This document shows, piece after piece, positions 27,865 through 51,775 of a DNA stretch of 64,000 nt. Positions within the stretch are counted from its first letter, which is position 1; every line of letters begins with the position of its first letter. The DNA comes from Phoenicibacter congonensis (GTDB lineage: Bacteria; Actinomycetota; Coriobacteriia; Coriobacteriales; Eggerthellaceae). The translations under genes were made by a program, and so were the position numbers. The stretch is taken from positions 248,001-312,000 of the forward strand of contig NZ_LT821227.1 in NCBI RefSeq assembly GCF_900169485.1. The letters are read 5' to 3'. The notes beneath the pieces are model-generated. The model had not been told where the DNA came from. It ran no database searches and was given only the letters and a program-made list of their open reading frames with translations.

Positions 27865-28314
27865 TTATCTGCGTTTTTTGAAAAACTGAGACAACAAGGT
27901 GGCGCATTCTTTTTCAAGAACGCCACCTTTTACTTTAAAGTTGTGGTTTAGTCGCGCATCTTCTGCGACTTTATAAAGCGTAACAAGCGCTCCGGCTTTT
28001 TTGTCATATGCTCCGAAGACGCATCTGTCAATTCGCGCCTGGTGCATGAGGCCCGCACACATTATGCAAGGCTCTAGTGTGACATAGACTGTGCACCCAG
28101 TGAGGCGCCAAGCTTGTTTTATTTTGGAAGCTTTTTCAATCGCAATGTGCTCTGCGTGCGCAGCAGGGCTGTGAAGTTGTTCTCTCAAGTTGTGTGAGCG
28201 AGCGATGATTTTACCTTCAGCATCAACTACAATCGCTCCAATTGGCACTTCGCCTTCTATTTCCGCTTGCTTCGCTTCTTCAATTGCAATTTTCATGTAT
28301 TCTTCGTCGTTCAT
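27865..28314 (-). CDS. tadA: tRNA adenosine(34) deaminase TadA
   Basis: This 149-residue zinc deaminase makes inosine at the wobble position of tRNA-Arg(ACG). Zinc and catalytic motifs are HAEH (catalytic Glu) and the PCIMC pair in TLEPCIMCAG, and VPIGAIVVD is typical. Its length is usual. It is isolated on the minus strand between two ABC operons. No strong ribosome binding site is visible before the ATG. Confidence 0.93.
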   Translation of the reverse strand: MNDEEYMKIAIEEAKQAEIEGEVPIGAIVVDAEGKIIARSHNLREQLHSPAAHAEHIAIEKASKIKQAWRLTGCTVYVTLEPCIMCAGLMHQARIDRCVFGAYDKKAGALVTLYKVAEDARLNHNFKVKGGVLEKECATLLSQFFKKRR

Positions 28315-28550
28315 AACAACTAATTCTACTTGTGTGTTAGAAGTTTTATGAAATTAACTTGAAGTAGAGATGACTCATAATCATTAATAGGAGTGTGAAT
28401 CAGTAAAGTTTTAAGCAGAATAATATACATAGGAATTTTAATCAAACTCATTCAAATTGTTATTATTGCGTTAACTCCAATGATTAAAAGTTAATTCTAG
28501 CTGGTGCGCTATACTTAGCTAAAGTGCTCAAATTTTGGAAAGGGGAGATC

Positions 28551-29570: not shown

Positions 29571-29771
29571 TTTTTTCAATATTTTTAATGTTTGGATGTA
29601 GGTTAAATTTAAGGCCTGGTTGCCATTTATTTGGAGATTAATTTGTTTTAGCGATAACAGCTAGATGTAAGGATTTTCTGATTGAACTTTTCTTAAATCG
29701 CATAAATTGGTGAAAGCTTTAAAGTCCAATTGAAAACCTGCTGATTGGTAGCTTGATATAAATAGCGACTT

Positions 29772-29812
29772 AGAGGGGTTGACCTGCTAAAATATGCAGG
29801 CAACCTCTTTTT
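29772..29812 (+). terminator. Intra-operon hairpin with T-run (attenuator or terminator)
   Basis: Long stem: AGAGG..GTTG pairs with CAACCTCT and the inner CCTGC with GCAGG, around an AT-rich loop, followed by five T. It ends 22 bp before the permease start, in the 264-bp gap after the binding-protein gene. It could reduce readthrough so that the binding protein is made in excess. Confidence 0.75.
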
Positions 29813-29834
29813 AGTTCTTAAGGATTAATAGCTC

Positions 29835-30839
29835 ATGAGTTTAACGATTTTATTTGATGCGACTTCTTTAGGCTTTGAATATGCATTATTGGCGGTCGGA
29901 ATATTTATCACGTTTAGAATTCTTGGCATGGCCGACCTCACCGTTGATGGGTCATTTTGCCTAGGAATGGCTGTTACATGCGTGTTTACTGTCGCTGGAC
30001 ATCCTGCCATTGGACTTGTGGCGGGCGCGGCAGCAGGTGCGCTCGCAGGCTGTGTAACTGGGCTTTTAGCTACAAAGGCACGAATTAACCCGTTGATTGC
30101 TGGTATTATCACATCAACTGGCCTCTATTCAATTAACGTTTATGTTTTAGGCTCCCCTAATTTAAGCCTACTTGGAATTTCAAAATTGTATGATGGGATT
30201 CATCGTTTATTGTTTCCTGGCCTTCCAACATCATCCGAGGCTCAAATGCCTGTGGCTCCTGGGGCAATTGCTCCAATTGACATCTCAAAGTTCATTTTCG
30301 TGATACTTATTGTGGTGGCAATTATTGCTGTTTTAATTTATTTCTTTAAAACCGAAAGCGGTCTTGCAATGCGCGCCGTTGGAGATAACGAACAGATGAG
30401 CGCTGCAAGTTCTATTAATGTTGACTTCTATAAAATAGGAGGTCTTGCCCTCGGCAATGCGCTTGTTGGCTTGACGGGTGGAATTCTTGCTCAATGCCAG
30501 GGATTTGGCGACATGACTAGCGGTACAGGCATGGTTCTTGTTGGTCTTGCTAGCGTTATTATTGGAGAAGTCTTTGGCGGAAGACGCGGAGTAACGTCCG
30601 GACTGATTTGCACCGTTGTGGGCTCTGTTGTCTATCGCATCATTATCCAAGTTGCAGTGGGGGTAAATCTCGACGCAAATTCATTAAAACTTATTAGTGC
30701 AATAATAGTTGGCACATTCATGTCTTTGCCGGCAGTTCGCGCTTTCTTCACTGAAAGAAAAACAAGAAAACATTCATATGAAGAAACCAACGGCGATACT
30801 TTAACCTCAGCAGACTTGAAGGGCGGCAAAAATGACTAA
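29835..30839 (+). CDS. ABC permease of the TrpX-type system
   Basis: This 334-residue membrane protein is a branched-chain-type permease (BPD_transp_2 family) with about eight to nine hydrophobic segments. GMADLTVDGSFCLGMAV near the N-terminus and the FKTESGLAMRAVGDNEQMS loop, the cytoplasmic ATPase contact, are typical. The single permease would work as a homodimer. It overlaps the ATPase gene start by 8 bp. Confidence 0.9.
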   Translation: MSLTILFDATSLGFEYALLAVGIFITFRILGMADLTVDGSFCLGMAVTCVFTVAGHPAIGLVAGAAAGALAGCVTGLLATKARINPLIAGIITSTGLYSINVYVLGSPNLSLLGISKLYDGIHRLLFPGLPTSSEAQMPVAPGAIAPIDISKFIFVILIVVAIIAVLIYFFKTESGLAMRAVGDNEQMSAASSINVDFYKIGGLALGNALVGLTGGILAQCQGFGDMTSGTGMVLVGLASVIIGEVFGGRRGVTSGLICTVVGSVVYRIIIQVAVGVNLDANSLKLISAIIVGTFMSLPAVRAFFTERKTRKHSYEETNGDTLTSADLKGGKND

Positions 30840-31641
30840 TCAGATGTTAAGTATTCAAGCGTTGAGGAAAACATTTAATAAAGGGCAAGCACTTGAGCAC
30901 AAGGCGCTTCAAGGCATCAATTTAAAAATGAATGAAGGCGAGTTTGTTTGTGTGGTTGGTTCAAATGGCGCGGGCAAATCAACTTTATTCAATTGCATTG
31001 CCGGCTCTGTAATGCCTGACTCTGGAAAAATTGTTCTCGATGGGAAAGACATTACTTTTGTGCGCGACTATCGACGTTCAAGGAATTTATCTCGTGTTTT
31101 TCAAGATCCGCTAAAAGGCACTTCGCCTAACCTAACGATTGCAGAAAATATTTCGCTTGCTTTGGGCAGATCAACTCATCAAAATCCCCTTGGGTTGGCA
31201 ATGAAAAAGTCGAAGCGAGAATTTATTGCAGATACGCTCGCGAAGTTTAACATCGGGCTCGAAAACCGTCTCGATGTTAAAGTTGGGAGCTTGTCGGGTG
31301 GGCAGCGTCAAACTGTCTGTTTGCTCATGGCCGTCATTGGAAAACCAAAACTATTGCTGCTTGATGAACACACTGCTGCTCTAGATCCACAGGCAACAAA
31401 AAACGTTCTTCAAATTACAAATGACGCCGTAAAGATGAATAATACGACGACAATTATGGTTACCCACAACATGGAAGATGCGCTCAGCTATGGTTCAAGA
31501 ACGCTTGTTATGCATGAAGGGCGCTTTATTGCAGACGTTACTGGCGATGTGCGCAAGAACATGTCGGTCGATGATCTTGTGGAGCTTTTTCATGAAGAAA
31601 CTGGCGAGACTCTTGCAAATGACGAGATGATGCTTGCATAG
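30832..31641 (+). CDS. ABC ATPase of the TrpX-type system
   Basis: This 269-residue ATPase has Walker A GSNGAGKST, Q-loop region RVFQDPLKGT, signature LSGGQRQTVCLLMAV, Walker B LLLLDEHTAALD (with His after Glu where Pro is usual) and the H-loop THNMEDALSYG. It powers the preceding permease. The start overlaps the permease stop. No terminator hairpin is obvious after it. Confidence 0.92.
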   Translation: MTNQMLSIQALRKTFNKGQALEHKALQGINLKMNEGEFVCVVGSNGAGKSTLFNCIAGSVMPDSGKIVLDGKDITFVRDYRRSRNLSRVFQDPLKGTSPNLTIAENISLALGRSTHQNPLGLAMKKSKREFIADTLAKFNIGLENRLDVKVGSLSGGQRQTVCLLMAVIGKPKLLLLDEHTAALDPQATKNVLQITNDAVKMNNTTTIMVTHNMEDALSYGSRTLVMHEGRFIADVTGDVRKNMSVDDLVELFHEETGETLANDEMMLA

Positions 31642-31810
31642 ACCATCTGTTTTTATTTCTAGGACAGATTTACAGAGCAAACTTGCAGACATGAATTTCT
31701 TCACTGCTATTATTGTGTAGAAAAAATCCGCAACAATTAGCAGATAGTTGCTTTCATAGCTTTAAATTCATTGAAGAGGGAAATCAGAGACCTCAACTTG
31801 TTCAACTTAT

Positions 31811-31840
31811 GGTTCATATTTGACCAAATTGAACATAACC
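31811..31840. promoter_or_regulatory. Inverted repeat upstream of the amino-alcohol cytidylyltransferase gene
   Basis: GGTT...AACC ends enclose GTTCA/TGAAC arms and an inner ATTTG-acc-AAAT core, about 30 bp overall. It lies 40-69 bp before the start codon. An operator role is inferred; the downstream protein carries winged-helix domains of its own. Confidence 0.45.
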
Positions 31841-31845
31841 TTTAC

Positions 31846-31871
31846 AATTCCTTTACAAACAGAAAGGAATT
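31846..31871 (+). promoter_or_regulatory. Leader hairpin covering the ribosome binding site
   Basis: AATTCCTTT (31846-31854) is the exact complement of AAAGGAATT (31863-31871), with an 8-nt loop. The right arm contains AAAGGA, the only ribosome binding site for the ATG at 31880. The hairpin would block initiation when folded. Confidence 0.55.
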
Positions 31872-31879
31872 AATTTAGC

Positions 31880-34549
31880 ATGATTTCTGAAAACGAATTC
31901 CTGATTTTATCGTCTTTGATAAATCAGCCTACTTTTAATCAACGTCAATTGGCCGAAATAACTGGACTATCTGTTGGCACAGTTAATAGCACCTATCGCA
32001 CATTAGAAGAAAAAGGTCTCACTTCTGATTATTCAGTAACAGATGATGGAACTAAAGAACTTGAACCTTTTAAAGTAAAAAATGCTGTGATTTTAGCCGC
32101 TGGACTTTCAAGCAGGCTGGCTCCCATCACATATGATCGTCCAAAAGGAATGCTCAAAGTTCGAGGCGAGATTTTGATTGAGCGCCAAATTGAGCAACTT
32201 CTTGATGCTGGTATAGATGACATTTATATCGTCGTTGGCTTTAAAAAAGAAGAGTTTTTCTATTTGGAAGAAAAGTATGGCGTAAAGCTAATCGTGAGCC
32301 CTGAGTATATGGAGAGAAACAACCATTCGTCCATTTGGGAAGCGCGACATGTTTTAGGCAACACATATGTTTGCTCTTCTGATAATTACTTCACAATAAA
32401 CCCATTTAATTCCTATGAATTTGCTTCTTTTACTGCTGCAACTGAATGTCACAGTGCGCCTCTAGAATATTTTTTAAAGACAAAAGGTAGCGTTAACAGA
32501 ATTGTTGGCGCAGAACTCAATGGTCAAGATGGCTTCGTAATGATGGGTCACACTTTTTGGAATGAAGAATTTTCTAAAAAGTTTATTGAAATTCTTCAAT
32601 CAGAATGGATGAAGCCAGAAACTGAAGACAAGCTTTGGGATGAGATTTTCTATGAACATGTAGATGAGCTCGTCATGAGAATGAAGGAATATCCACGTGG
32701 TGTAATCCAAGAGTTCGACTCTCTTGATCAAGTTAGTGCTTTTGACCCTGAGTTCATCCAAAATGTTGGATCTGATGTGCTTGACAACATTTGCAACACA
32801 CTTTCTTGCGAACGAAGCGACATTAGAAACATTGACCCCATTAAGCAAGGTTTAACTAATTTATCTTTTTATTTTGAGTGTCGTGGCGACGGTTATGTTT
32901 ACCGACATCCTGGTGCTGGAACAAATGAGATTATCAATCGCCCTGCTGAGGCTTTCGCGTGTAAAACTGCCGCCGATCTTGGCCTTGATGAAACATTTGT
33001 TACTGAAGATGCAACCAGCGGATGGAAGATTTCAAAGTTTGTTCCCGATTGCACTGGCTTTGATTATAGTGACACTTCCCAAGTTGAACGTGCTCTTGGC
33101 ATGGTTCGAAAGCTGCATCAAAGTGGCGTAATTTCTCCATGGAGTTTCGATTTTTATGATGAGTCTCTAAACATTGTGCACATTTTGAAGGAATCTGGCT
33201 GGACCTTCCCTTCTGGTTTTGACGAACTTCAAGCTAGAATTGCATCTCTTGTTGCTCCTATGCGTGCCGGTGCAGGTGAGCCTGTTTTGTGCCACAACGA
33301 CTTCTATGGTCCAAACTTGTTAGTTCATGGTAAAGATATGTGGCTCATAGACTGGGAATATTCTGCCATGGGCGATTATGGAAATGACTTTGGCAACTTC
33401 ATTGCCCAGAGTGATTATTATGATGTTGAGGGCGCAATAGAGGCAATGTCTCTTTATTTTGGTAAGAAACCGACACCTGACCAGGAGTTCCATTTAATAG
33501 CATGTTCAGCTGTTGTTGGCTGGTATTGGTATGTTTGGGCGATGTTTAAAGAGCTAAAAGGTGCGCCTGCTGGTGAGTGGCTTTATGTTTGGTATCGAGC
33601 GGCGAAAGAATTTTCGGCAAGAGCAATTGAGATGCTTGGCGGAAATTCATTCGAGAGAAACCTTTCCATGGACGAATTCCGCATTCTTGCAAAGGCAGAT
33701 GCTAGACGTGCTGGTCGAGATTATGAATATGGTGAAGTCTCCAACACAGCTGAGGCGAGTGAGAACCTTGAAAAGCGGGGTTTTTTGCGTGACGGCGAAA
33801 TTACTGCTCTTGGAGTTGCTGCGCTTGAGCCATACAGAGTTAAGCGCGGCGTTTTGCTTGCTGCTGGTTTCGGAAGCCGACTTTTGCCTGTGACTGTCAA
33901 CACTCCAAAACCTCTTGCGCGTGTAAACGGTTTGCGAATTATCGACCGTTTGATTGATGGTCTCCTTGCTGCTGGAGTTACTGAAATTTATGTAGTGCGT
34001 GGTTATCTGGCAGAAGAATTCGATCAACTTCTGAACAAATATTCTGACATTAAGTTCATTGAGAATCCACTCTATTCTAAGACCAATAACATTAGTTCGG
34101 CGCTCGCAGCAATCGACCATTTTGAAGATGCATATGTTTTTGAAAGCGATTTATTGCTGGAAAACCAATGTTTGCTCACACCCTACCAATATCGCTCCAA
34201 CTATTTGGGGATTGACGTTGATAGCACCGATGACTGGCGTTTCCTCACCGACGAAAACGAGAGAATTTGTGATCTTGCTAAAGGTGACGAAAATCGTTGC
34301 TGGCAAATGGTCGGCGTCTCCTATTGGGAAAAATCAGATGCGCATCGACTTGCTGAAGACATACGAGAAATCTTTGAGACCGAAGAGGGCAAACAAATAT
34401 TTTGGGATGAAGTTCCAATCCTTCATAAAAATGAACATTTTGATCTTTATGTTCGTCCTTGCAAAAGTGAAGACATCGTTGAGATTGACGATTTCGAGGA
34501 CTTGCAGAGAATAGACCCTTCATACATCGTTAAAAAGAAGGCCGTCTAA
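31880..34549 (+). CDS. Tripartite wHTH-nucleotidyltransferase / choline-ethanolamine kinase / wHTH-nucleotidyltransferase (LicC-LicA-LicC-like)
   Basis: This 889-residue protein is a fusion. Residues 1-60 are a winged helix (QRQLAEITGLSVGTVNSTYRT). Residues 67-295 are a LicC-type nucleotidyltransferase (LAAGLSSRLAPITYDRPKG). Residues about 320-590 are a choline/ethanolamine-kinase fold with the Brenner motif LCHNDFYGPNLL and metal-binding LIDWEYSAMGDY. Residues about 597-650 repeat a more degenerate winged helix. Residues 655-889 are a second nucleotidyltransferase (LAAGFGSRLLPVTVNTPKPLA, and YSKTNNISSALAA, FESDLLLE as in LicC). So the HTH-transferase unit is duplicated around the kinase. The expected chemistry is amino alcohol to phospho- to CDP-amino alcohol. 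An ethanolamine-type permease follows after 11 bp. The substrate, choline versus ethanolamine, is not certain. Confidence 0.85.
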   Translation: MISENEFLILSSLINQPTFNQRQLAEITGLSVGTVNSTYRTLEEKGLTSDYSVTDDGTKELEPFKVKNAVILAAGLSSRLAPITYDRPKGMLKVRGEILIERQIEQLLDAGIDDIYIVVGFKKEEFFYLEEKYGVKLIVSPEYMERNNHSSIWEARHVLGNTYVCSSDNYFTINPFNSYEFASFTAATECHSAPLEYFLKTKGSVNRIVGAELNGQDGFVMMGHTFWNEEFSKKFIEILQSEWMKPETEDKLWDEIFYEHVDELVMRMKEYPRGVIQEFDSLDQVSAFDPEFIQNVGSDVLDNICNTLSCERSDIRNIDPIKQGLTNLSFYFECRGDGYVYRHPGAGTNEIINRPAEAFACKTAADLGLDETFVTEDATSGWKISKFVPDCTGFDYSDTSQVERALGMVRKLHQSGVISPWSFDFYDESLNIVHILKESGWTFPSGFDELQARIASLVAPMRAGAGEPVLCHNDFYGPNLLVHGKDMWLIDWEYSAMGDYGNDFGNFIAQSDYYDVEGAIEAMSLYFGKKPTPDQEFHLIACSAVVGWYWYVWAMFKELKGAPAGEWLYVWYRAAKEFSARAIEMLGGNSFERNLSMDEFRILAKADARRAGRDYEYGEVSNTAEASENLEKRGFLRDGEITALGVAALEPYRVKRGVLLAAGFGSRLLPVTVNTPKPLARVNGLRIIDRLIDGLLAAGVTEIYVVRGYLAEEFDQLLNKYSDIKFIENPLYSKTNNISSALAAIDHFEDAYVFESDLLLENQCLLTPYQYRSNYLGIDVDSTDDWRFLTDENERICDLAKGDENRCWQMVGVSYWEKSDAHRLAEDIREIFETEEGKQIFWDEVPILHKNEHFDLYVRPCKSEDIVEIDDFEDLQRIDPSYIVKKKAV

Positions 34550-34560
34550 AAGGAGAGACA

Positions 34561-35979
34561 GTGGAAGAAAAGCTTGAAACATTTGAGAGCTCAGAATATT
34601 TTGAAAAGCGTTCATTGAAAACAGGAGCTGCAGGTTGGATGCTTCTGATGGGACTTGGAGTTGCCTATGTTATTTCTGGTGACTTTTCGGGCTGGAATTA
34701 TGGCATTGCACACGGTGGTTGGTTGGGTTTAGCAATTGCATTTGTCTTGATGGGAACAATGTATGTTTGCACAGTTCTTGGTGAGGCAGAAATGTCTTCC
34801 GCATTGCCAACTGCGGGAGCAGGGTTCGCATTTTCGAGATGTGCGATGGGAAGGTTTGGCGGATTTTTAACAGGTCTTGCAATTACAGTTGAATATGTTT
34901 GCGCCCCAGCTGCAATATCTACTTTTATCGCTAATTATTTCTTGGAATTGGGACTTCTCCCCGATGATTTTCCAAGACTCGTTTTGATTGCAATCATATT
35001 TTTCATTTTCTTAGGAGTGCACATTTTCGGCGTAGGTGAAGCGCTGAAATTGATGCTTTTAATCACACTTGTTGGCGCTGTTGCGCTTGTCGCGTTTGTA
35101 GTTGGAGCTGCTCCTGCTTTTGATCCAGCTGGACTATTTGACATTGCTCCAAATGGCGGAACTTCCACCGCACTTCCTTTTGGTTTTAGTGGCCTTCTGG
35201 CTGCTCTCCCTTTTGGAATATGGTTCTTTCTTGGTGTCGAGGGTGTTCCTCTGGCGGCGGAAGAAGCAAAGAATCCGAAGAAAGACATCCCCCGTGCCAT
35301 TATAGGCTCAATGGCTGTGCTCATTTGCACAGGTCTCGCTGTGCTCACTTTTGCTGCTGGTGTAACAGGTTCTCAGGTAATGGGCGAGTCTTCTGCTCCT
35401 CTCGTTGATGCTCTCAATGCAGCAGGGAATCCTGGGCTTGCATTCTTTGTAAACGTAGCAGGTTTATTCGGGCTCATTGCATCTTTCTTTTCTCTGATCT
35501 ATGCAGGTTCAAGAGAAGTGTTTGCACTTTCCAGAGCCGGTTATTTACCAACTTTTTTGTCTTTGACAGGAAAGCGTAAAACGCCTTGGGTAGCTCTTGT
35601 TGTTCAAGGAGTTATTGGTTTTTTGCTGGTTGTAGTTGTGGAGTCAGGCGACGTTTTGCTCAACATGGCAGTTCTTGGTGCTTGCATTAGTTATGCTTTA
35701 ATGAATGCTTCGCACATCATTTTTAGGAATAAGCAACCTGGTTTAAAACGTGGATGGCTTACGCCAGGAGGTAAAGTAACGACCTGTGTTGGGCTTGTTC
35801 TTTCTGTTATTGCAGTTTGTTCAACGTTCTTTGTCGACACGATTGCTTCAATTGGAATCATTTGCGTACTCATTGCAGGTTCAGTTTATTTCTTCGTCTA
35901 TGCAAAGAAGCGCCTCATTGCAAATGCTCCAGAAGAGGAGTTTGCCAAACTTGAAGATGCGAGTGCAGAAATTAGATAA
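34561..35979 (+). CDS. APC-family permease, ethanolamine/amino-acid type
   Basis: This 472-residue polytopic protein has about 12 hydrophobic segments. It resembles the ethanolamine-permease branch of the APC superfamily: ISGDFSGWNYGIAHGG in the first segments (glycine-rich unwound helix), PTAGAGFAFSRCAMG, and VEGVPLAAEEAKNPKKDIPRA in the loop typical of APC carriers. It starts at GTG with AAAAGGAGAG upstream, 11 bp after the tripartite enzyme, so the two are one operon. That link suggests it imports the amino alcohol used by the kinase. A plain amino-acid transporter remains possible. Confidence 0.82.
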   Translation: MEEKLETFESSEYFEKRSLKTGAAGWMLLMGLGVAYVISGDFSGWNYGIAHGGWLGLAIAFVLMGTMYVCTVLGEAEMSSALPTAGAGFAFSRCAMGRFGGFLTGLAITVEYVCAPAAISTFIANYFLELGLLPDDFPRLVLIAIIFFIFLGVHIFGVGEALKLMLLITLVGAVALVAFVVGAAPAFDPAGLFDIAPNGGTSTALPFGFSGLLAALPFGIWFFLGVEGVPLAAEEAKNPKKDIPRAIIGSMAVLICTGLAVLTFAAGVTGSQVMGESSAPLVDALNAAGNPGLAFFVNVAGLFGLIASFFSLIYAGSREVFALSRAGYLPTFLSLTGKRKTPWVALVVQGVIGFLLVVVVESGDVLLNMAVLGACISYALMNASHIIFRNKQPGLKRGWLTPGGKVTTCVGLVLSVIAVCSTFFVDTIASIGIICVLIAGSVYFFVYAKKRLIANAPEEEFAKLEDASAEIR

Positions 35980-36152
35980 TGCATACTTTTTCTGTAAAGA
36001 GTCACTCTGTTAACGATGTGGCAACATCCTAAATTCTGTGTCAGGAATTGTTAGAGAAACTTTCCATATTGATAGTTAATGCGAATAGGAACGTTTTTTT
36101 ATTAGTGAGAAGCATTTCCGGAGTTGTATTTTGAATAGACGAGGAGTTGGTT

Positions 36153-37712
36153 ATGAAAGCATATAAAGGAACAATTCTGACCGTAGACAAAAGTGACTCC
36201 ATTGCTAAATGGCTTGTTGAAGATACTGGTCAAATAGTTTATGTTGGAGATGAACTTCCATCTCAATTTAAAAATGCTGAAGTTATTAACCTTGGAAGAA
36301 AAACGCTTTGCCCAAGCTTTGTCGACACTCATGCGCATCTAGCAAGCTTTGCAACGTTTAATGCAGGCCTCAATGTGATGAATGCTCGTTCTAATTCAGA
36401 AATCGTTGAGCGTGTTGCTGATTTCTCTAAAAGAACGTCAGCTAAAGTCTTAATTGCATTTGGAGCTTCTCCCTACTCAGTGGAGGAAGGACATCTTGTT
36501 AGTCGTGAACAACTTGATTTAGCTTGTCCTGACAAACCGGTTATGCTTGTCAAATATGATGGCCATGCATGCGTTGTGAATTCTGCATTACTTAAGTTGA
36601 TAAATTCTGATGTAAAAGAACTTCGTGGATATCATCCTGATAGCGGAGAGATGAACCAGGAAGCATTTTTTAAAGTTTCTGACTTTATTACTAGTTCGCT
36701 CTCAATTCCAGAACTTGTAAGAAACATTCAAAAGGCCATGGATTATTATGCGTCACGTGGAATTGGAATGGTCCACACAGTAAGCGGTGTTGGTTTCGCT
36801 GGCGACATGGACATAACAATGGAACAATGTGTAGCAAAGAGCGCACAAAGCGGTTTCCAAATTCGAGTTTTTCCACAAACGCTTGATGTAAATGTTGCGC
36901 TAAAAAGAAAACTGCCAAGAATTGGTGGCTGCTTTGCATGCGCGCTTGACGGATGCTTTGGATCAGCCGATGCTGCTTTGAACGAACCTTATGAAGGAAC
37001 CAGTGACACTGGCGTTCTTTACTATGATGATGAGAAAGTTGCTTCATTTTGCAAGGCAGCTAACCGCGCTGGGCTCCAGATTGAAATGCATGCTATTGGA
37101 GATGCTGCTTTTGATCAAGCCGCTAGATGCATCAAGGCAGCGCTTGATGAATTCCCTCGAAAAGATCACCGACACGGCATAATTCATTCTTGCTTGCCAA
37201 CAGAAGAAGGCACCAAGATTTGCGCGGAATATGGAATTCAATTTCCTATGCAAACCTCTTTTATTGATTGGCCTCAAGAGCCAGATGAATATCTTTGCAA
37301 GTTGTTGGGCAATAAAAGAGCAAACAACCTCAATCCACTGCGCAAGTATTGGGATGCAGGAATCCGAATTTCTGCGGGATCCGATGCGCCATGCACTGAT
37401 CCTAATCCAATTCTCTGGATGGAAAAAGCCTGCAATCACTCTAATCCACATGAGTCTCTAACACCTGAAGAAGCACTTCGAATGTGCACGTTTAATGGTG
37501 CAGCTGCAACGTTTGACGATGATAAACGAGGATCGCTCGAGGAAGGAAAAATTGCTGACATGACAGTGCTCAATGGAAATCCCTATGATGCTGATTGGAA
37601 AAACCTAAAAGTTGAACAGCTCATTTTGCAAGGCAAGCCATATGAAAATCAAAGACAAGGTGCATTCTCTGCTCTGCTTAAAGGATTTGTTTCAAAAGCT
37701 AAGAACTACTAG
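36153..37712 (+). CDS. Metal-dependent amidohydrolase, YtcJ-like
   Basis: This 519-residue enzyme of the amidohydrolase superfamily (Amidohydro_3) has the metal-binding VDTHAHLAS (His-x-His), a candidate metal ligand in VKYDGHACVVN, HAIGD and RHGIIHS (later His ligands), and GSDAPCTDPNP (Asp). The C-terminal GSLEEGKIADMTVLNGNPYD returns to the small beta-domain. The ATG at 36153 is preceded by GAGGAG, so an upstream TTG is rejected. Members hydrolyse amides, carbamates or formamides. Its position 173 bp after the permease suggests, but does not prove, that it releases an amine for that pathway. Confidence 0.82.
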   Translation: MKAYKGTILTVDKSDSIAKWLVEDTGQIVYVGDELPSQFKNAEVINLGRKTLCPSFVDTHAHLASFATFNAGLNVMNARSNSEIVERVADFSKRTSAKVLIAFGASPYSVEEGHLVSREQLDLACPDKPVMLVKYDGHACVVNSALLKLINSDVKELRGYHPDSGEMNQEAFFKVSDFITSSLSIPELVRNIQKAMDYYASRGIGMVHTVSGVGFAGDMDITMEQCVAKSAQSGFQIRVFPQTLDVNVALKRKLPRIGGCFACALDGCFGSADAALNEPYEGTSDTGVLYYDDEKVASFCKAANRAGLQIEMHAIGDAAFDQAARCIKAALDEFPRKDHRHGIIHSCLPTEEGTKICAEYGIQFPMQTSFIDWPQEPDEYLCKLLGNKRANNLNPLRKYWDAGIRISAGSDAPCTDPNPILWMEKACNHSNPHESLTPEEALRMCTFNGAAATFDDDKRGSLEEGKIADMTVLNGNPYDADWKNLKVEQLILQGKPYENQRQGAFSALLKGFVSKAKNY

Positions 37713-37847
37713 AGTAATTATTTTTTTGCAAGGTGCATGCCTCTGAGTAGCCAACTTTGTTGAATTTAGGCACAGTTGCGCACGAATACCACCAGCATGA
37801 ATCCCTCTTGTTATAAGTGCGGAATCAACGAGTTCTGCTTGCTCCAA
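37692..37847 (-). CDS. Possible 51-residue ORF downstream of the sulfatase-fold gene
   Basis: A TTG at 37847 with AAGGA 6 nt upstream opens 51 codons that overlap the end of the amidohydrolase gene in antisense by 21 bp. The peptide has no signal, membrane segment or family I recognise. It may be a degraded gene remnant or chance. Confidence 0.2.
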   Translation of the reverse strand: MEQAELVDSALITRGIHAGGIRAQLCLNSTKLATQRHAPCKKIITLVVLSF

Positions 37848-37915
37848 ATCTTTTCCTTATAGAGCGTCTAAAAGTCCAGTTCGTGTGATGCGAGAGATGA
37901 GCAAAGCGTAGGTTA

Positions 37916-40030
37916 TTACGCTTTGCCTCCCACCAAAGTTTCTCCTGTGAAGTGCCAGTTGTTGAAATCGGTTGAGTCACCTTCGATTTTGTAGTGGAAC
38001 ATCGAGTGTGAATAACGTCCATCAGAAGAAATCATCCAAAAATCACGCACGTTCATGCTTGGGTCGTCTTCAAAAATGGTTGATCCATATTTAGAGTAGT
38101 TTTGCCCCATAGCGCTTAGTATTGTCGCCATTAGTTGCGAATGGCTAACTGGTGAGTCGGTTCTTACTACGTTTCCTTCCCCTGTTCCACTCTTTTTAGC
38201 GAACATAATTGGAGTAGTAGCGTAATCAGGCAAATCCTCTGAGGAATGCCAGTTGCCATGGTCTGAAGTAATAATTATTGTTGCGTTGTCATAAAGGCCT
38301 TTTTCCTTTAATTGTTTCAAGTATTCGTTGACGATGTGAATTGCGGCGCGCGCCTGCGTAGTTTCGTCGGAATTGCCAACACCAACATCTTCTGCATTTT
38401 CATTCAGATAATATGGATCGTGATCGCCGTTTAGGTGAATTAGTCTAAATGCGCCGTTGTAGCCACGGTCGTCTACTGTGATTCCTGAATCTTTGAGTTT
38501 TTCATAATAGCGAACATCATCTGTAACGTGGACGGTATCTGCTGGCGAGCCGTCGGATTGGTATGAGATAACGTTTCTGTTTATGTCATCGGTGTAGAAG
38601 CGGAAGCGCTCTTTGAAAACCCAAGGTGCATCACGATATAGAGAACACTTAATTAGCGACTTCACTGCGTTTTCAACGTTGATATTCATGCTGCTCAAAG
38701 GGTGAATGTTTATTGTGTTAGAAGCAACATACTTCTGTGAATCTTCGTCGCTCATTTTGTTTAGTTGCAGGTCGGGACTGTAAATTCCAACTGAATAGTT
38801 GGAATCATGCATGTCTTTGAGGAAAGTAGACCTTTTGTATCTAGTTTCTCTGTAGTGAACTAGGTCCTCACCCTCATCTGGATGAACTCCTGTCAGCATA
38901 TATGGAATGGCATTGTTCGTTGGAATCATTACGCTGTTTGAATTGTGGAAATAGGTAAATCCCTGCCACTCATTGAGTGCATCTGGATATTCTTGCAACA
39001 CCCTGTCCATTGTTTTTGTGTCAAATCTGTCAAGCACAAACATGATTACATTGTTTTTGCTTGAAACTTCGTTCATTCCATCTTCTGTAATTTGTGTTGG
39101 TCCCAAATCGCTTGAATAACTTCTCTCAGTAATTTGGTTTGCGAACAGGCTACCAACCCCAACGGCCTGCACGAAAATCAAAACGATGGAGATGGCGGCT
39201 GCAAAACCCTGGAAGCGACTGCGGTTTATGTTTGAAACTAATGCGATACCAACAATGAGAACAATCCAAACTATGAGTGAGACAATCATCATCGTTTTAT
39301 GGTCACCCCAGAAATCAACTTCGCGACCGTCTGCAGATGGAAGCCCATTGTTCATAAACATAGCTTGTATGTAGAAACAGAGGCTCACAGCAAAAGCAAG
39401 AGCAAGCAAAACTGTAAATAGTTTTCCTCTGAATAAAGACAGCACAATAGCTGTGATTAAAATTACAATTATTGTGAACACGGCCATTGGAATTGCGATG
39501 TCGCTTAACGCAAAACTTAAAGAGCCACCTGCACCTGCGACTATCTCATATGGGGCGACAATGCCGAGGGTAAATCCTCCAAACGTGCAAACTATTAAAG
39601 AAAGAATGAAACGACGGAACCATCCTGGTTCTATTCCCTTGTCCTCTTTTTTCTCTCCCTTTTCTTTTTTCACGAAGATAGAAGTTTTTCTTGCTTCAAT
39701 TGTGTGACGGTCCTCTTCAGCAATGATTGGGTTGCCGCTTTCGTCTACTCTGCACCATGCAGGGTCAACTTCTTTCCCCGCATTTTCATCAATTCCAAGC
39801 GCTTTAACAAGTTTTTTTCTTGTTCGACGAAATGCCACGCCAAGCACAGTGGATAGCGCAACAGCCACGCCTGCCAATGCCTGAATAGTGTAGGTCATAA
39901 CTGACGGATCTACATATGCCCAGGCAACGTTTGAGAACAACGGCAGTGTTGTCGCGGCAAGCACTAAACATGCGAACACATCAAAAGAAATGAGCACTAG
40001 GCGCCTGCAGTCTAAATTAGTTTTCTGCAT
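37916..40030 (-). CDS. Membrane-anchored sulfatase/LtaS-fold phosphotransferase
   Basis: This 704-residue protein has an N-terminal segment (about 12-40), a helix with the AYVDPSVMTYTIQALAGV motif, a charged cytoplasmic loop, then four to five membrane segments (about 140-300) and an outside catalytic domain (about 330-690). The domain begins NNVIMFVLDRFDTKTMD, as alkaline-phosphatase/sulfatase folds do, with FDT offering a candidate nucleophile Thr, and it carries the late metal motif TSDHGNW. LtaS-like and phosphoethanolamine-transferase enzymes share this plan. The start at 40030 is 1 bp after the stop of the YidC-TagF fusion and has AAAGGTG upstream. Polymer assembly or tailoring of a teichoic acid is the likeliest role; a true sulfatase is less likely given the membrane plan. 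Confidence 0.8.
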   Translation of the reverse strand: MQKTNLDCRRLVLISFDVFACLVLAATTLPLFSNVAWAYVDPSVMTYTIQALAGVAVALSTVLGVAFRRTRKKLVKALGIDENAGKEVDPAWCRVDESGNPIIAEEDRHTIEARKTSIFVKKEKGEKKEDKGIEPGWFRRFILSLIVCTFGGFTLGIVAPYEIVAGAGGSLSFALSDIAIPMAVFTIIVILITAIVLSLFRGKLFTVLLALAFAVSLCFYIQAMFMNNGLPSADGREVDFWGDHKTMMIVSLIVWIVLIVGIALVSNINRSRFQGFAAAISIVLIFVQAVGVGSLFANQITERSYSSDLGPTQITEDGMNEVSSKNNVIMFVLDRFDTKTMDRVLQEYPDALNEWQGFTYFHNSNSVMIPTNNAIPYMLTGVHPDEGEDLVHYRETRYKRSTFLKDMHDSNYSVGIYSPDLQLNKMSDEDSQKYVASNTINIHPLSSMNINVENAVKSLIKCSLYRDAPWVFKERFRFYTDDINRNVISYQSDGSPADTVHVTDDVRYYEKLKDSGITVDDRGYNGAFRLIHLNGDHDPYYLNENAEDVGVGNSDETTQARAAIHIVNEYLKQLKEKGLYDNATIIITSDHGNWHSSEDLPDYATTPIMFAKKSGTGEGNVVRTDSPVSHSQLMATILSAMGQNYSKYGSTIFEDDPSMNVRDFWMISSDGRYSHSMFHYKIEGDSTDFNNWHFTGETLVGGKA

Positions 40031-40031
40031 T

Positions 40032-41945
40032 CTAATCACCTTTCTCTTCCTCATGTTTTTCTGCCTGCTTAGTTAATATTTCCTGCAGTAAATATTCGCC
40101 TGCAACGTTGGCAGATTCACCGATGTTAAAAATCGTTTTATTGCGAATTTCTTTGATTTTGTCATGCCAGCTGCTTTGATGCTCAATCATTTCAGCAAGC
40201 ACATCGCCAATTTCGTTTGCTTTAGCAGGGTCAAGTGATTTTCCAATCTCATTGCGAAGTGTGATGTCGACTGGTTCAATTCCTAAATCTTTCCAATTAG
40301 GATTTGAAACCTTCATTTTAGTGTCCATGAAAACGACTGGTTTGCATGTTGAAAATGCGAATTCTGCTGAGACTGAAGACCAGTCAGTGATCAAAATGTC
40401 GGAAGAAAAAATTGTTTTGTTTGACGAAAAGTCTTTTTCGAAATAGAGTTCATCTTCTGACACATTTTCATAATTTGCTTGAAGTGCTTTCCAACGTGCT
40501 CCATAACGTTTTGTGTATTCTGGATGTGGTCTCACAATAATTTTCCAACCACGTCCGAGCATCGATTTGAGCATGTCATCAATGCACGAGTCTAAAATGC
40601 AATCCTCTTGCCATGATGGTGCAATCAAAATTGTTGGCTTGTCATTACCCGAAGTCAGTTCTGAGAATGCTTCAATCTCTTCGTCAAGCAACGGATAACC
40701 GCACTCGACAAGGTTTTTTGCAGACAGGTTATATATTTTTTCTGCTTGTCTAACTTCTTTTACTTGATGAGGTCCTGTGCAAAGCAGAGTGTCGAATTTG
40801 TCATAGGCTTCTTTTCTAGCTGCCAAATGAGTTGAAGTCATGTGATGGAAGAAGAAAACATATTCAATGTCATCGCGAACATAGGAGCGCTTAATGTAGT
40901 AGTTGTCAAAATCTTCAAGTGTCATCGCGACAACATCGGCGTCCATTTTCATCATGAGCGTGATGGCTTTCTTTTGACCGATGTAGTAGGGGCGAATTCG
41001 AGGTTCCGTTTCCGCAATTTTAAAAATTTGATCGTCTGGGTCGTTGGTTACATAATGAATGTTGCCTTTTGAATTCTTTAAGAGATATTCAATTGCGCCT
41101 TTGAAATATTTATAGAAACCACTTCCTTCAGAATAAAAAACCATGTGTTTATCAACAACATGCAAGAATTTCTTGTAATCTCGTTTTTCACGTTTTGCAA
41201 GCGGATCTTTCTGATACCACTTCTTTTTCTCTGCTCCGTCAAGGGACTCTAGCGCTTCTAGTTCTTCGCGACTTGCTTGCAAATCTTCGTAGTCAATGTA
41301 TTTTTTAGGTTTGATACAAATGTTGCAAATTGCCTGAATGATAATTGCTGAGAAGTTAGAGACAATCCAATAAAAGCACATTCCTGCTGCAACAAAAACG
41401 CCAAGAAACAATGACAAGCCAATTGACAAACCGTTGGTCATGTTCTTTTCGGCTTTTGATTGTTCTTTTTGAAGAGGGTTGATTCTGTTTTGCGCGAAGC
41501 CCATAATAACAGCAGAAAGCCCTGCAAGAACAGGCATTATCCAAGAAACTCCGCCGTCTTCAATCGGGACGAGTCCTAAAAATTCTGTTCCTGGCGCGCC
41601 ATTGTCGGTTATGACATGAATCACGTCAACAAGGCCAAACAAAATTAGAACTTGCACTGCAAGGGGGATTAGAGAAAGCATTGGGTGGTAGTGCTTTTCT
41701 TTGTACATCTCATTTTGCTTTTCGCCAATTGTTTCTTTATCGCCATAATATTTTATTTTCAGGCGGTTGAGGGCTGGCATGATTTTTACCATTACGATGC
41801 TGTTCCATTGGCACCAAAGTGACATTGGGAACAGAATTACTTTTGTAATGAGTGTAAATAAAAGGATTGAAATCCACCAGTTTCCAGAAATGTCATAACA
41901 TGGCTGCACTATCAGCATTAGTGCATTGGTGATTGCTTCTATCAA
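40032..41945 (-). CDS. YidC-like membrane module fused to CDP-glycerol glycerophosphotransferase
   Basis: This 637-residue protein is a fusion. Residues 1-215 align with YidC: five hydrophobic segments, SLIPLAVQVLILFGLVDV, and the helix WISILLFTLITKVILFP, in which Lys35 takes the place of the Arg35 of the housekeeping YidC. A charged linker (about 220-265) joins it to a TagF/TagB-type transferase (about 270-620) with KIIVRPHPEY, FSSDILITDWSSVSAEFA and KPVVFMDT, the family's RPHP and D-W/Y-SS motifs. It begins at TTG with GGAG 7 nt before. The enzyme would polymerise or prime glycerol phosphate at the membrane. The membrane module may anchor or channel it rather than insert proteins. Confidence 0.88.
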   Translation of the reverse strand: MIEAITNALMLIVQPCYDISGNWWISILLFTLITKVILFPMSLWCQWNSIVMVKIMPALNRLKIKYYGDKETIGEKQNEMYKEKHYHPMLSLIPLAVQVLILFGLVDVIHVITDNGAPGTEFLGLVPIEDGGVSWIMPVLAGLSAVIMGFAQNRINPLQKEQSKAEKNMTNGLSIGLSLFLGVFVAAGMCFYWIVSNFSAIIIQAICNICIKPKKYIDYEDLQASREELEALESLDGAEKKKWYQKDPLAKREKRDYKKFLHVVDKHMVFYSEGSGFYKYFKGAIEYLLKNSKGNIHYVTNDPDDQIFKIAETEPRIRPYYIGQKKAITLMMKMDADVVAMTLEDFDNYYIKRSYVRDDIEYVFFFHHMTSTHLAARKEAYDKFDTLLCTGPHQVKEVRQAEKIYNLSAKNLVECGYPLLDEEIEAFSELTSGNDKPTILIAPSWQEDCILDSCIDDMLKSMLGRGWKIIVRPHPEYTKRYGARWKALQANYENVSEDELYFEKDFSSNKTIFSSDILITDWSSVSAEFAFSTCKPVVFMDTKMKVSNPNWKDLGIEPVDITLRNEIGKSLDPAKANEIGDVLAEMIEHQSSWHDKIKEIRNKTIFNIGESANVAGEYLLQEILTKQAEKHEEEKGD

Positions 41946-42139
41946 TTGTTACTCCGTAATACTTCTTAGCAAGGAACACACTTGTGCTCAATTAACATAT
42001 TCAACCTTATGAGTTTACCAAAGCGAGCACAGCAATTAAGAAATTAGACCGTGCAGCCCTTTTGTTATCCTCTCACATCTTGTTTATTTTTCAGCAAATC
42101 TTTGTAGCAAGCGAGGTTTGCGCGGAAATCTTTGCTTGT

Positions 42140-43156
42140 TTAGAAGCGATGCTTTTCACTAGAGTTCATTTGGTTTTCGCTCGTCAGTTCATGCCAACTG
42201 GTGAGCAGTCTTTCGCTCACAGCATTTATAACAGCACATCCTGGTTCAGATGTGTGAGTGCAATCGCGAAATTTGCATTGATGTGATAGTTTTGCTATTT
42301 CTGGAAAAGCTTTTTCAATCCCATTTACGCAGTCAATCATTCCTATTGAGCGAAGCCCAGGCATGTCAACAACTCTGTGATTGTCTGTTAGCTCGATTAT
42401 TTCACGTGAAACAGTTGTGTGACGACCTTTGTCGTCAAATTCACGCACTTCGCCTCGCAGGCACAATTCTTCTTCTGCTATTCCGTTGATTAATGATGAT
42501 TTTCCTGCTCCCGATTTTCCAACTAAAATTGTTGTTACGCTTTTTTCGAATAACCTCTCTATTTCAAAATGTTCTTCTTCAATCGTCAAATTATCGTTAC
42601 TCTCTATTTCACAAATTGTAAGACGCTTGCATTTTGCTGACAGTCCATTTAATTCAGTTTTGTAAATGTTGTCGAAAGCAGGCAGAAATTCTTTCACTTC
42701 GCCTAGGTTAGGTTTTGATAGGTCGCATTTAGTAATTATTAAATCTGTTGGGATGTTTGCGTTTTTAGATATTACGAGCATTCTTGCGATATGAGAGAAA
42801 TTTAGTTCGGAAGCAACAGAGCAAATTGCAATTCTGTCAAAATTTGCTGCTAGTGCTTGTTTTTTATTGCGATTAACTGGGTCGTTTCGATACAGTTCAG
42901 TTTTTCGCGGAAGAATTCGATTTATGATTGCGTTTTCTTGGTTGTTGGTAAGCGTGACTTCAACCAAGTCCCCTATTGTTAGCGCCTGCTTTTTTTTCGA
43001 CATTTTCGCACAGAATTCCGCTCGCAGTTTTTTCGAAACACATGTCTTTCCGGTTTGCAATTCACCCTTTAAATCGTTGAAGCCTTCGTCCCTAGATTGC
43101 AGTTCCACTAAGGGGAGACCACGATCGAGCTTGATTACTTCAGCAACTTTTTCCAC
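42140..43156 (-). CDS. rsgA: Ribosome small-subunit GTPase RsgA
   Basis: This 338-residue circularly permuted GTPase checks 30S maturation. The order is OB domain (about 35-90), the G4 TKCD before G1 (GKSGAGKSSLIN), G3 DMPGL, and a C-terminal zinc knuckle with CKFRDCTHTSEPGC. It starts at GTG, sharing bases with the stop of the lipoprotein gene upstream (one-base overlap). A parS-like sequence lies inside the coding region. Last gene of the trkH-lipoprotein-rsgA run. Confidence 0.95.
   Translation of the reverse strand: MEKVAEVIKLDRGLPLVELQSRDEGFNDLKGELQTGKTCVSKKLRAEFCAKMSKKKQALTIGDLVEVTLTNNQENAIINRILPRKTELYRNDPVNRNKKQALAANFDRIAICSVASELNFSHIARMLVISKNANIPTDLIITKCDLSKPNLGEVKEFLPAFDNIYKTELNGLSAKCKRLTICEIESNDNLTIEEEHFEIERLFEKSVTTILVGKSGAGKSSLINGIAEEELCLRGEVREFDDKGRHTTVSREIIELTDNHRVVDMPGLRSIGMIDCVNGIEKAFPEIAKLSHQCKFRDCTHTSEPGCAVINAVSERLLTSWHELTSENQMNSSEKHRF
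42398..42413. promoter_or_regulatory. parS-like site inside rsgA
   Basis: TATTTCACGTGAAACA is one base from the consensus and encodes part of the TTVSREI sequence of RsgA. It may be a real outlying parS or a codon coincidence. Confidence 0.4.
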
Positions 43157-44037
43157 TAGTTGTCCTCAATATCTTCATCTGTCTCAGCTTGGGCAAGTTC
43201 TGCCCTTTTTCGTTTCGCGAGGTAGAGATAAAAACCAGACATAATTCCGCCGAAAATTAGCATACAAATTCCAAAAGAGAGTCCTTGTGCATCAAATTCA
43301 GGATTGACTTCATTGCCTACTGCTTTTATACTTGAGCTCTCTGCATGTACATCGCATAGTCCGTCGTGCTGAGGGCATGCGATATTAAACACACCTCGCA
43401 CTTTTAATGTGGTCCCACGTTTCCCATAGGCACCATATGTGTCTATTAAATTGGTGGTGTTTTCGGTGCAATAAACTGATATTGTGCTGAATTTATCCTT
43501 TTCCTCTGCCTGCAATGTTATCCAATAGTGACCTTCTTCAAAGCCTACTGTGCGTCTGTCGCCAATCACTTCTCCCACGATTTGCACTGTTTGCCCATCA
43601 AGGATGTTAGCGGAAGAGTCCTGCAACTCAGCAATTGACGTGTCATAGAGAAAAGAAGAATCTGCATCTTGCGATGGATTCACTTTGTTTGTTGGAGTTA
43701 GGGCTTGCGGATCTGCAATTCCACCTGCGTCATTTCTTGCTTTTAATTCACAACCAGTGAGTGACATTGTCATTAAAAGCGATAGGAATGCGAGCGCTAT
43801 GGGTTCAAAAAATCTTTGCTTAGTAGATGAGCGATGTTGAGTCTTTGTAGTTTCAGCGTTCCAGCCAGTGAACTTGCAATTTTGAGCAGTGTTATTGCTA
43901 ATTACTGCGCTCAAAGAAAATCTATTCCTATCTTTATTTTCAGAAAAGTTTTCTTTCTGAAAATTTGTGCGCTTCCTGAGTACGCTTAATTTGCGTGAAT
44001 TGAAAAACTCTTTATTTTTAGAAGTCCTTAAACTCAT
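43156..44037 (-). CDS. Lipoprotein with OB-like domain and C-terminal membrane helix
   Basis: This 293-residue protein has an unusual 75-residue Ser/Lys/Arg-rich leader before a hydrophobic signal (PIALAFLSLLMTMSLTGC) with lipobox LTGC. Residues about 125-235 look like an OB-fold strand set (LDGQTVQIVGEVIGD, HYWITLQ, STISVYC, TLKVRGVF), ending before a second hydrophobic segment (SFGICMLIFGGIMSGFYLYLA) and a charged tail. So it could be held at both ends. The ATG at 44037 has AAAGGT upstream, which supports the long leader. It sits between trkH and rsgA. The function is unknown. Confidence 0.65.
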   Translation of the reverse strand: MSLRTSKNKEFFNSRKLSVLRKRTNFQKENFSENKDRNRFSLSAVISNNTAQNCKFTGWNAETTKTQHRSSTKQRFFEPIALAFLSLLMTMSLTGCELKARNDAGGIADPQALTPTNKVNPSQDADSSFLYDTSIAELQDSSANILDGQTVQIVGEVIGDRRTVGFEEGHYWITLQAEEKDKFSTISVYCTENTTNLIDTYGAYGKRGTTLKVRGVFNIACPQHDGLCDVHAESSSIKAVGNEVNPEFDAQGLSFGICMLIFGGIMSGFYLYLAKRKRAELAQAETDEDIEDN

Positions 44038-44049
44038 GACAGTTGACCT

Positions 44050-45774: not shown

Positions 45775-45783
45775 AGCAAGAAC

Positions 45784-50320: not shown

Positions 50321-51775
50321 ATGAAATTAAGAGCTGAGAGGAAAGCTTTTAGCAGCAAGCCTCGCAAGCAAAACTGGATAACACGCCAGGTTAATCAATG
50401 GTTTGATCGCGTTGTTGGCGCGATGAAGGGTGATGGTCTTGCTGAGCAAGAAGCAATTTATGGTTCTCATCAAACAACCCGAGATTTCCTTTGGAATTCC
50501 ATTGGTACTGCCTGCTGGTCTTTTGTTTTTCCAGTAGTTACGATGGTTTCAACTCAACTAGTTGGTGTTGAGCAAGCCGGCAGAATTTCAATGGCGTTTG
50601 TCATTGGTCTTTTGCTCATGTTTGTAGGCAATTTTGGAACCCGTGCCTATCAAGCATCTGACATTAAACGCGAGCATTCCTTCATGGATTATCAAGCCAC
50701 ACGTTGGGTTACGTGTGTTTTAATGCTGTTGGCGGGCTGGTGGTATTGCGGTTTTCGTGGATACACCGGTGACATGAACGCAATTGTCACCGCTGTGCTT
50801 GTTTACAGATGTGTTGATGCTTTGGCAGATGTTTACGAAGGGCGACTTCAACAGTGCGACAAACTATATCTTGCAGGCATTTCGCAGGCGGTTCGCTCAA
50901 TTGCAGCGCTCTTTTTCTTTTGTATTTTCCTTTTGATAACAAGAAACTCAGCAACTGCTTGCTGGGCAATGGCTATTGTTGCCGCAATTACTTTTTTTGT
51001 TTTGACTTTGCCTCTGGCACTTCTTGAAACACAGAAATCTCATGGATTTAGTCTTAGTAGCGTTTGGAAACTCCTAAAAATCACGGCGCCGCTATTCTTG
51101 GCGGTGTTTCTTTTCAATGTCATCGAAAACATGCCAAAACTCGTGATGGAGGGAGCGCTTGACTACGACGCCCAGCTCTACTTCAATGCTCTATATTTCC
51201 CAGCTCAATGCATATTAATACTGGGTCAGCTTGTCTATAAACCTTTGATTTTGCGAATGGCCGACGTTTGGCAAGATGACAAAAAGAGACGCAAATTTGA
51301 TGTTCTGATTCTTGCTATATTGCTGGTGATAGTTGCGATTACAGCAGGAGCTTGGGCTTTTATGGCTTCATTTGGAATTCCAGTTATGAGCTTTTTTTAT
51401 GGTGTCGATTTCGAGAATTATCGCAAACTTTCATATGTCATGATTGCAACTGGTGGTGTCACTTGTGCCATCGATTTTATTTATCAAGTGATTACTGTAA
51501 TGCGCCGTCAAAAGGATGTTATGACGCTGTATTGCGTTACTTTTGCTTTCTCTCTCTTTATTCCGTCGTTGCTCATCGGATTTGAAGGTCTTGACGGTGC
51601 TATTCTGTCCTATTTAATAATAGAATCTATTTTGTTGGTGCTTCTTGTTTGGGAATATTTCAGAATCAGGGGCGATTTAACCAGGGAATCTCAAATTCGC
51701 AAAGAGACTGAAGAAAAGGTTCGCAAGTCTTTTCTTGATTTGATGGAAGACCAGCCAATGGGTGAGGGGAAATAA
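50321..51775 (+). CDS. Polysaccharide flippase (Wzx/MATE-type, MOP superfamily)
   Basis: This 484-residue protein has about 12-14 hydrophobic segments in the Wzx/RfbX arrangement after a basic 40-residue cytoplasmic N-terminus. FVFPVVTMVSTQLVGVEQAGRIS at segment one and YFNALYFPAQCILILGQLVYKP in the middle match polysaccharide exporters. It probably moves lipid-linked saccharide or teichoic units across the membrane. It abuts the next gene directly (TAAATG), an operon with a Na/Pi transporter. No glycosyltransferase is adjacent. Confidence 0.8.
   Translation: MKLRAERKAFSSKPRKQNWITRQVNQWFDRVVGAMKGDGLAEQEAIYGSHQTTRDFLWNSIGTACWSFVFPVVTMVSTQLVGVEQAGRISMAFVIGLLLMFVGNFGTRAYQASDIKREHSFMDYQATRWVTCVLMLLAGWWYCGFRGYTGDMNAIVTAVLVYRCVDALADVYEGRLQQCDKLYLAGISQAVRSIAALFFFCIFLLITRNSATACWAMAIVAAITFFVLTLPLALLETQKSHGFSLSSVWKLLKITAPLFLAVFLFNVIENMPKLVMEGALDYDAQLYFNALYFPAQCILILGQLVYKPLILRMADVWQDDKKRRKFDVLILAILLVIVAITAGAWAFMASFGIPVMSFFYGVDFENYRKLSYVMIATGGVTCAIDFIYQVITVMRRQKDVMTLYCVTFAFSLFIPSLLIGFEGLDGAILSYLIIESILLVLLVWEYFRIRGDLTRESQIRKETEEKVRKSFLDLMEDQPMGEGK

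Follow-up and report, generated by a model that had tools for sequence, protein, structure and literature searches.

How the immune system and choline-binding proteins recognise bacteria depends on the phosphocholine and phosphoethanolamine of the cell surface. The closest described route to such decoration is the Lic pathway of Streptococcus pneumoniae, in which LicA, LicB, LicC, LicD1/D2, and TacF serve to place phosphocholine on teichoic acid. Several other described systems bear on the present locus. TagF is a poly(glycerol-phosphate) polymerase, and LtaS, EptA, MCR-1, and PbgA/YejM are membrane enzymes of the alkaline-phosphatase fold. EptA and MCR-1 transfer phosphoethanolamine, and EptA-type enzymes draw it from phospholipid, not from CDP-ethanolamine. 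YidC/Oxa1 proteins are insertases. PntC of Treponema denticola is a 2-aminoethylphosphonate cytidylyltransferase whose ESD motif positions its Glu for contact with the primary amine of the substrate (PMC6697681).

Here we describe an island of five genes in a 64,000-nucleotide stretch of the genome of Phoenicibacter congonensis, of the family Eggerthellaceae (the window). The host genome is a single contig of 1.45 Mb, 99.7% complete. A sequence-only reading of the window had described a tripartite cytidylyltransferase-kinase-cytidylyltransferase, an ethanolamine-type permease, an amidohydrolase, a YidC-TagF fusion, and a membrane sulfatase-fold enzyme, and all five proved to be intact open reading frames where they had been placed, with both fusions real and conserved. 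The fusions had also been called unprecedented-looking; no paper on the YidC-TagF fusion or on phosphocholine polymers of Coriobacteriia was found in the open-access literature, but the fusions occur across the lineage and are not unique to this genome, since they are conserved in many Coriobacteriia. We propose that the island encodes a LicD-independent pathway that would put an amino-alcohol phosphate on a cell-envelope polymer by means of YidC-TagF and an LtaS-like enzyme, a reading on which our confidence is evenly divided. An envelope polymer is probably where the activated amino alcohol goes; the most likely candidate for this alcohol is ethanolamine or a compound closely derived from it, ahead of choline. 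The features are:

31880..34549, + strand: 889-aa LicC-LicA-LicC activation protein (Pfam, structure-sequence matches, residue alignments, C2-clade placement)
34561..35979, + strand: ethanolamine-type APC-family permease (TIGR00908 above cut-off)
36147..37712, + strand: Amidohydro_3 metal-dependent hydrolase (Amidohydro_3 match, 8e-58)
37916..40054, - strand: membrane alkaline-phosphatase-superfamily (sulfatase-fold) enzyme, 712 aa (Pfam, model, invariant residues)
40032..41945, - strand: YidC-TagF fusion, TTG start (Pfam 60KD_IMP and Glyphos_transf, model)
50321..51775, + strand: possible MOP-superfamily (TacF-like) flippase, a tentative member (relatives adjoin LicD and LicCA elsewhere)

The five island genes form two convergent units, three genes on the plus strand and two overlapping genes on the minus strand. 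The permease gene begins 11 bp after the activation-protein gene, and the stop of YidC-TagF overlaps the start of the sulfatase-fold gene by 23 bp. Directly upstream, on the same strand as the first unit, lies a three-gene ABC transporter (TrpX-like binding protein, permease, and ATPase; 28524-31641). An Rfam search of 27000-46000 and a search of the island region against a phage collection returned no match.

The activation protein is composed of a winged helix (about residues 1-50), a LicC-type NTP transferase domain, C1 (66-290), a LicA-type APH/choline kinase domain (304-576), a winged-helix-like linker, and a second LicC-type domain, C2 (652-889). C1 matched pneumococcal LicC (1jyk) at 4.6e-35; C2, searched as the last 250 aa, matched the same structure at 8.5e-28 and also PntC. 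The kinase domain matched two choline/ethanolamine kinases, 3dxq (3.8e-24) and 4r77 (LicA, 6.5e-16). In residue alignments the equivalents of the LicC metal ligands D107 and E216 are retained, as are the Brenner motif CHND...N of the kinase and the equivalents of its aromatic-cage residues W251, W254, and Y197, and Gln occupies the position of E213 (LicA reference residues from PMC4364537). Homology makes a strong case that the LicA-type domain would phosphorylate, and the LicC-type domains convert to CDP-amino alcohol(s), a substrate that is putatively an amino alcohol. C1 carries the motif SSD and C2 the PntC-like ESD, the latter in 34/34 C2 copies; at C1 position 192, LicB-type copies have Glu and C2-type copies are mixed. 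Calling choline or ethanolamine from single residues was rejected, there being no clean split at SSD/ESD or at C1 position 192. A winged-helix-like segment precedes each LicC domain (31880-32030 and about 33650-33830), and only the first is Pfam-significant.

The permease scored 430.2 bits against TIGR00908, an NCBIfam equivalog with a cut-off of 381.75, and a homologue (80%) sits at the same place in L001/L070. No match to the choline transporter LicB was found in 22001-54500 of the window, where the ethanolamine-type permease is present instead. Uptake and CDP activation of an amino alcohol, as proposed beforehand, is the best reading of LicC and LicA domains accompanied by an ethanolamine permease. 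The amidohydrolase has no apparent signal sequence; our guess is that it releases or processes the amino alcohol. The TacF-like protein at 50321-51775 has relatives at 49-50% in G250 and G204, near LicCA, an ethanolamine-type permease, and C2. PF01943 matched 8 of the 16 members of its family, the window protein not among them, and a search of solved structures (PDB) with this protein, alone and as a profile, gave no match. For the L071 member, a 1,164-aa open reading frame that seems to be extended in the wrong frame over its first ~650 aa, the TacF-like part alone was used. A Na/Pi cotransporter gene directly follows the TacF-like gene.

A tree of 118 C1-kinase regions (LicC-LicA, or LicCA) separated two classes: a clade of 25, 24 of them with C2 as neighbour or fusion (support 87), holding an inner group of 24 rows that includes the window (support 97), and a second clade of 65, 56 with LicB (support 100). 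C2 and LicB were largely exclusive across the 118 copies (6 both, 34 C2 only, 57 LicB only, and 21 neither; p 1.4e-9). An amidohydrolase lies beside 15 of 40 C2-bearing copies versus 1 of 78 others (p 1.4e-7), and an ethanolamine-type permease beside 8 of 40 versus 1 of 78 (p 7e-4). This exclusion and these linkages suggest that C2-class LicCA likely handles something other than choline, for which ethanolamine is the simplest guess.

Other gene neighbours were seen at C2-type loci. An octopine-dehydrogenase-like gene adjoins C2-type LicCA in L011 (1011-2087), L069, L090, L098, and L100, and an ornithine-cyclodeaminase-like gene does so in L051 (5176-6126); such neighbours hint that the headgroup of some species may be an N-carboxyalkyl amino alcohol. 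In the island, too, the substrate of the kinase and LicC domains could be a different small alcohol, such as an N-carboxyalkyl-ethanolamine of opine type or some other amino alcohol that the amidohydrolase sets free, and differences between the C2 and LicB clades at choline-pocket positions would fit this as well. Since the island has no such dehydrogenase and its permease is clearly of the ethanolamine-permease type, we regard such a substrate as improbable here and keep to ethanolamine or a close derivative.

The second unit of the island encodes the proteins that might use the activated alcohol. YidC-TagF matched 60KD_IMP (YidC) in Pfam at 2e-27 (96.7 bits, cut-off 35), TIGR03592 with 86.0 bits (cut-off 84.3), and, over cut-off, Glyphos_transf (PF04464, TagF) at 3.8e-14. 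Its YidC/Oxa1-like domain covers residues 23-208, and the TagF domain 269-540 by Pfam and about 250-630 in the predicted model. The model (mean pLDDT 89) has TagF 3l7k as its top structural match (1.7e-11), and it also matches YidC structures 6al2 and 3wo7 (target TM 0.65 for 3wo7). The YidC groove Arg is replaced by Lys in 25/25 aligned YidC-TagF copies; a separate standard YidC at 13764-14546 of the window retains the Arg. The YidC domain of the fusion may have a non-insertase transport role, which we think rather unlikely.

The sulfatase-fold protein has N-terminal membrane helices followed by a sulfatase/alkaline-phosphatase catalytic domain that is predicted to be extracytoplasmic. Its model (mean pLDDT 83) matches PbgA/YejM, MCR-1, EptA, and LtaS. 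Residues D342, T379, H545, D598, and H599 are invariant across 26 homologues, which is what one would expect if the protein is an active phosphotransferase or hydrolase that depends on metal; T379, D342, D598, and H599 were tentatively equated, by inspection, with nucleophile and metal-ligand residues of LtaS. Its score against the NCBIfam LtaS equivalog, 18.4 bits, lies below the cut-off of 970. No other PF00884 member was found in the genome. At L043, L054, L055, L045, and L046, two to three sulfatase-fold paralogues adjoin one YidC-TagF gene.

Among 258 Coriobacteriia genomes, YidC-TagF was found in 45, LicCA in 93, and LicD (by PF04991) in 107. The families named by the sequence-only reading co-occur and are co-operonic in these relatives. 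LicCA is present in 42 of the 45 genomes with YidC-TagF (Fisher p about 8e-19, phylogeny ignored), and LicCA and LicD are common to 83 genomes (p 7e-34, phylogeny ignored). At L041, L045, and L046 a single same-strand operon, its genes spaced by about -50 to 115 bp, combines LicCA and a transporter with YidC-TagF and either one or two genes of the sulfatase fold; the order is LicCA, LicB, YidC-TagF, sulfatase, sulfatase at L045 and L046 (G219 and G232), and LicCA, permease, small orf, YidC-TagF, sulfatase at L041 (G126). At L049 (G145) the order is YidC-TagF, sulfatase, and LicCA fused to C2. L011 and L069 have nearly the gene set of the window in one tight operon (amidohydrolase, LicCA, C2, YidC-sulfatase, TagF), with the YidC domain shifted from TagF to the sulfatase.

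The two halves of the island could still be unrelated neighbours, a LicCA-permease-amidohydrolase unit with one envelope or metabolic purpose beside a separate YidC-TagF/sulfatase unit. They are transcribed convergently in the window, and in many relatives they lie far apart: YidC-TagF is within 12 kb of LicCA at only 14 of the 46 loci listed, the window's own included. Both observations also count against our main reading. Same-strand operons uniting the halves in at least L041, L045, L046, L049, L053, L011, and L069, and the strong co-occurrence of YidC-TagF with LicCA, make a chance neighbourhood distinctly unlikely. In the window itself the five genes are not one operon.

Within the second half, domains have moved between chains. 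A YidC-sulfatase protein with a separate TagF is encoded at L011, L012, and L069, and YidC, TagF, and sulfatase are one chain of ~1,400 aa at five loci (L047, L058, L060, L061, and L068). This shuffling is the best evidence for one machine, and together with the conserved adjacency it supports the view that the YidC-like, TagF-like, and sulfatase-fold domains would act as one functional unit, which is conserved and apparently undescribed so far.

LicD, noted beforehand as missing from the window, is missing from the whole genome as judged by PF04991 and a profile of eight relatives' LicD, profiles that would miss an unrelated transferase. TIGR01518 (TagD) had no match in the genome, where PF01467 members are of CoaD, NadD, and RibF type. 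TarI was not found there either: the PF12804 matches were read from sequence, length, and neighbours as MobBA-like, GlmU-like, GalU-like, IspD (adjoining IspF), and the two LicC domains. A CDP-ribitol route through TarI was rejected, all these matches being otherwise assigned with no extra IspD-like enzyme among them. Apart from YidC-TagF, the genome yielded no PF04464 member, and so no second TagF. In the absence of TagD, TarI, and a second TagF, the two LicC domains are therefore the only CDP-alcohol makers found for TagF. Two further fusions were seen in this genome, an Obg-like GTPase with a NadD-like domain (L019:1411-3399) and PgsA with a CinA/PncC domain (L015:937-2085).

The sequence-only reading had the amino alcohol used on a glycerol-phosphate polymer, which is unsupported because no source of CDP-glycerol was found. 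In that model TagF builds the polymer, the CDP-amino alcohol decorates it, and the sulfatase-fold enzyme replaces LicD. TagF and LtaS folds in the predicted models agree with it, as does the presence of the phosphoethanolamine transferases EptA and MCR-1 among the structural matches; yet a TagD-like match stronger than 1e-30 is absent from 37 of the 45 YidC-TagF genomes, and EptA-type enzymes use a phospholipid donor and not CDP-ethanolamine. We consider this model unlikely. A sulfatase-fold enzyme in the place of LicD is possible and is not the simplest solution, because the enzyme belongs to the same unit as YidC-TagF, the only CDP-alcohol-type polymer transferase found.

In some bacteria the same activation enzymes serve lipids (PMC7368946), so the island could in principle feed CDP-ethanolamine or CDP-choline into a Kennedy-type synthesis of membrane phospholipid. 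Of CDP-alcohol phosphotransferases the genome has two, PgsA, which scored over its cut-off, and one that resembles ClsA/PgsA, and the gene neighbourhood is that of an envelope polymer, not of lipid. A Kennedy-type pathway was accordingly rejected as the main reading, and we think it highly improbable.

LicD adjoins these families in many relatives, and seven genomes have YidC-TagF and LicCA without LicD (G000, G126, G219, G232, G248, G250, and G256). Five of the seven have no TagD match at all (G000, G126, G219, G232, and G250), and G126, G219, and G232 have a single LicC-bearing match at 1e-50, without C2. In these genomes the LicC product would be the only CDP-alcohol found for YidC-TagF, an argument from absence, with TarI checked in the P. 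congonensis genome only.

LicC also recurs in other fusions. In G086, where LicCA gave no match at 1e-50, LicC is fused at L067 to a threonine-phosphate-decarboxylase-like domain (L067:3388-5199) near a sulfatase gene; the partner is phosphoserine/phosphothreonine-decarboxylase-like (CobD-like), with 6oux as best solved relative. At L060 (G251), LicC fused to a PsrA-like Fe-alcohol dehydrogenase (L060:10800-13082) overlaps the single-chain YidC-TagF-sulfatase gene, and as G251 has LicCA elsewhere (L117) this fusion is an addition, not a replacement. Either fusion would suit the activation of some small phospho- or phosphonate alcohol, so that LicC for such an alcohol appears to recur beside the machine. 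LicC-CobD-like fusions were also seen in L008, L069, L098, and L100, near sulfatase/YidC-TagF genes or adjoining C2-type LicCA; starting from an amino acid phosphate, fusions of this kind would yield CDP-ethanolamine or CDP-aminopropanol.

In the pathway that we favour, the permease would import the amino alcohol, and the amidohydrolase might free or process it, an opening step that we put forward tentatively. The LicA-type domain would then phosphorylate the alcohol and the LicC-type domains form CDP-amino alcohol(s). Because no other user or donor was found, we assign the next step to the TagF domain, which the YidC-like domain would keep at the membrane and which would move phospho-amino-alcohol units from the CDP donor to a putative lipid-linked acceptor on the cytoplasmic side; for YidC-TagF as user of CDP-ethanolamine or a related CDP-amino alcohol, the case for and the case against are about equally strong. 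The LtaS/EptA-fold enzyme of the same machine, whose fold and conserved residues are evident, would carry out a second phosphotransfer or trimming outside the membrane. A bolder version makes YidC-TagF a new polymer machine, in which TagF polymerises or transfers phospho-amino-alcohol directly from CDP-ethanolamine or CDP-choline, the Oxa1-family domain is an anchor or path for the lipid-linked product and not a protein insertase, the sulfatase-fold partner completes transfer outside, and LicD and an ABC exporter are unneeded; this we doubt. Further points speak against the main reading. LicD is also present in most relatives, so YidC-TagF may have another job there; LicD may simply have been lost here, leaving the pathway partly idle; homology of the TagF domain suggests CDP-glycerol or CDP-ribitol as donor; and synthesis of CDP-glycerol by C1 or C2 is conceivable.

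If true, a LicD-independent route across Eggerthellaceae and Atopobiaceae, commensals of gut and mouth, would help explain how envelope polymers are built in little-studied bacteria, would add a donor to those of TagF, and would show the YidC/Oxa1 fold in a role beyond protein insertion. One candidate was found for most steps in this genome, which makes the question directly testable.

Compared with known systems, the island shares PF04464 and its best structural match with the TagF polymerase, but its TagF is fused to a YidC-like membrane domain in a genome with no TagD or other CDP-glycerol source found. With YidC/Oxa1 insertases it shares PF02096, TIGR03592 over cut-off, and the YidC fold of the model, and it differs by the groove Lys, the attached TagF domain, and the separate standard YidC. 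The sulfatase-fold enzyme has the alkaline-phosphatase fold and membrane helices of LtaS, EptA/MCR-1, and PbgA/YejM, with conserved residues of putative metal-site type, but falls below the LtaS equivalog cut-off and belongs to a family fused to or co-encoded with YidC-TagF. C2 has the LicC-like fold and the PntC-type Glu (ESD), and is joined to a LicA-type kinase instead of a phosphonate aminotransferase. With the Lic pathway the island shares a LicA-type kinase and a LicC-type cytidylyltransferase, and its relatives have LicB, LicD, and TacF-like genes adjoining; unlike that pathway, it has the kinase between two LicC domains of a single chain, an ethanolamine-type permease and an amidohydrolase where LicB would stand, a genome that lacks LicD, and a link to the YidC-TagF/sulfatase-fold machine. 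We read the island as a variant form of Lic-type decoration that includes a YidC-TagF-sulfatase unit.
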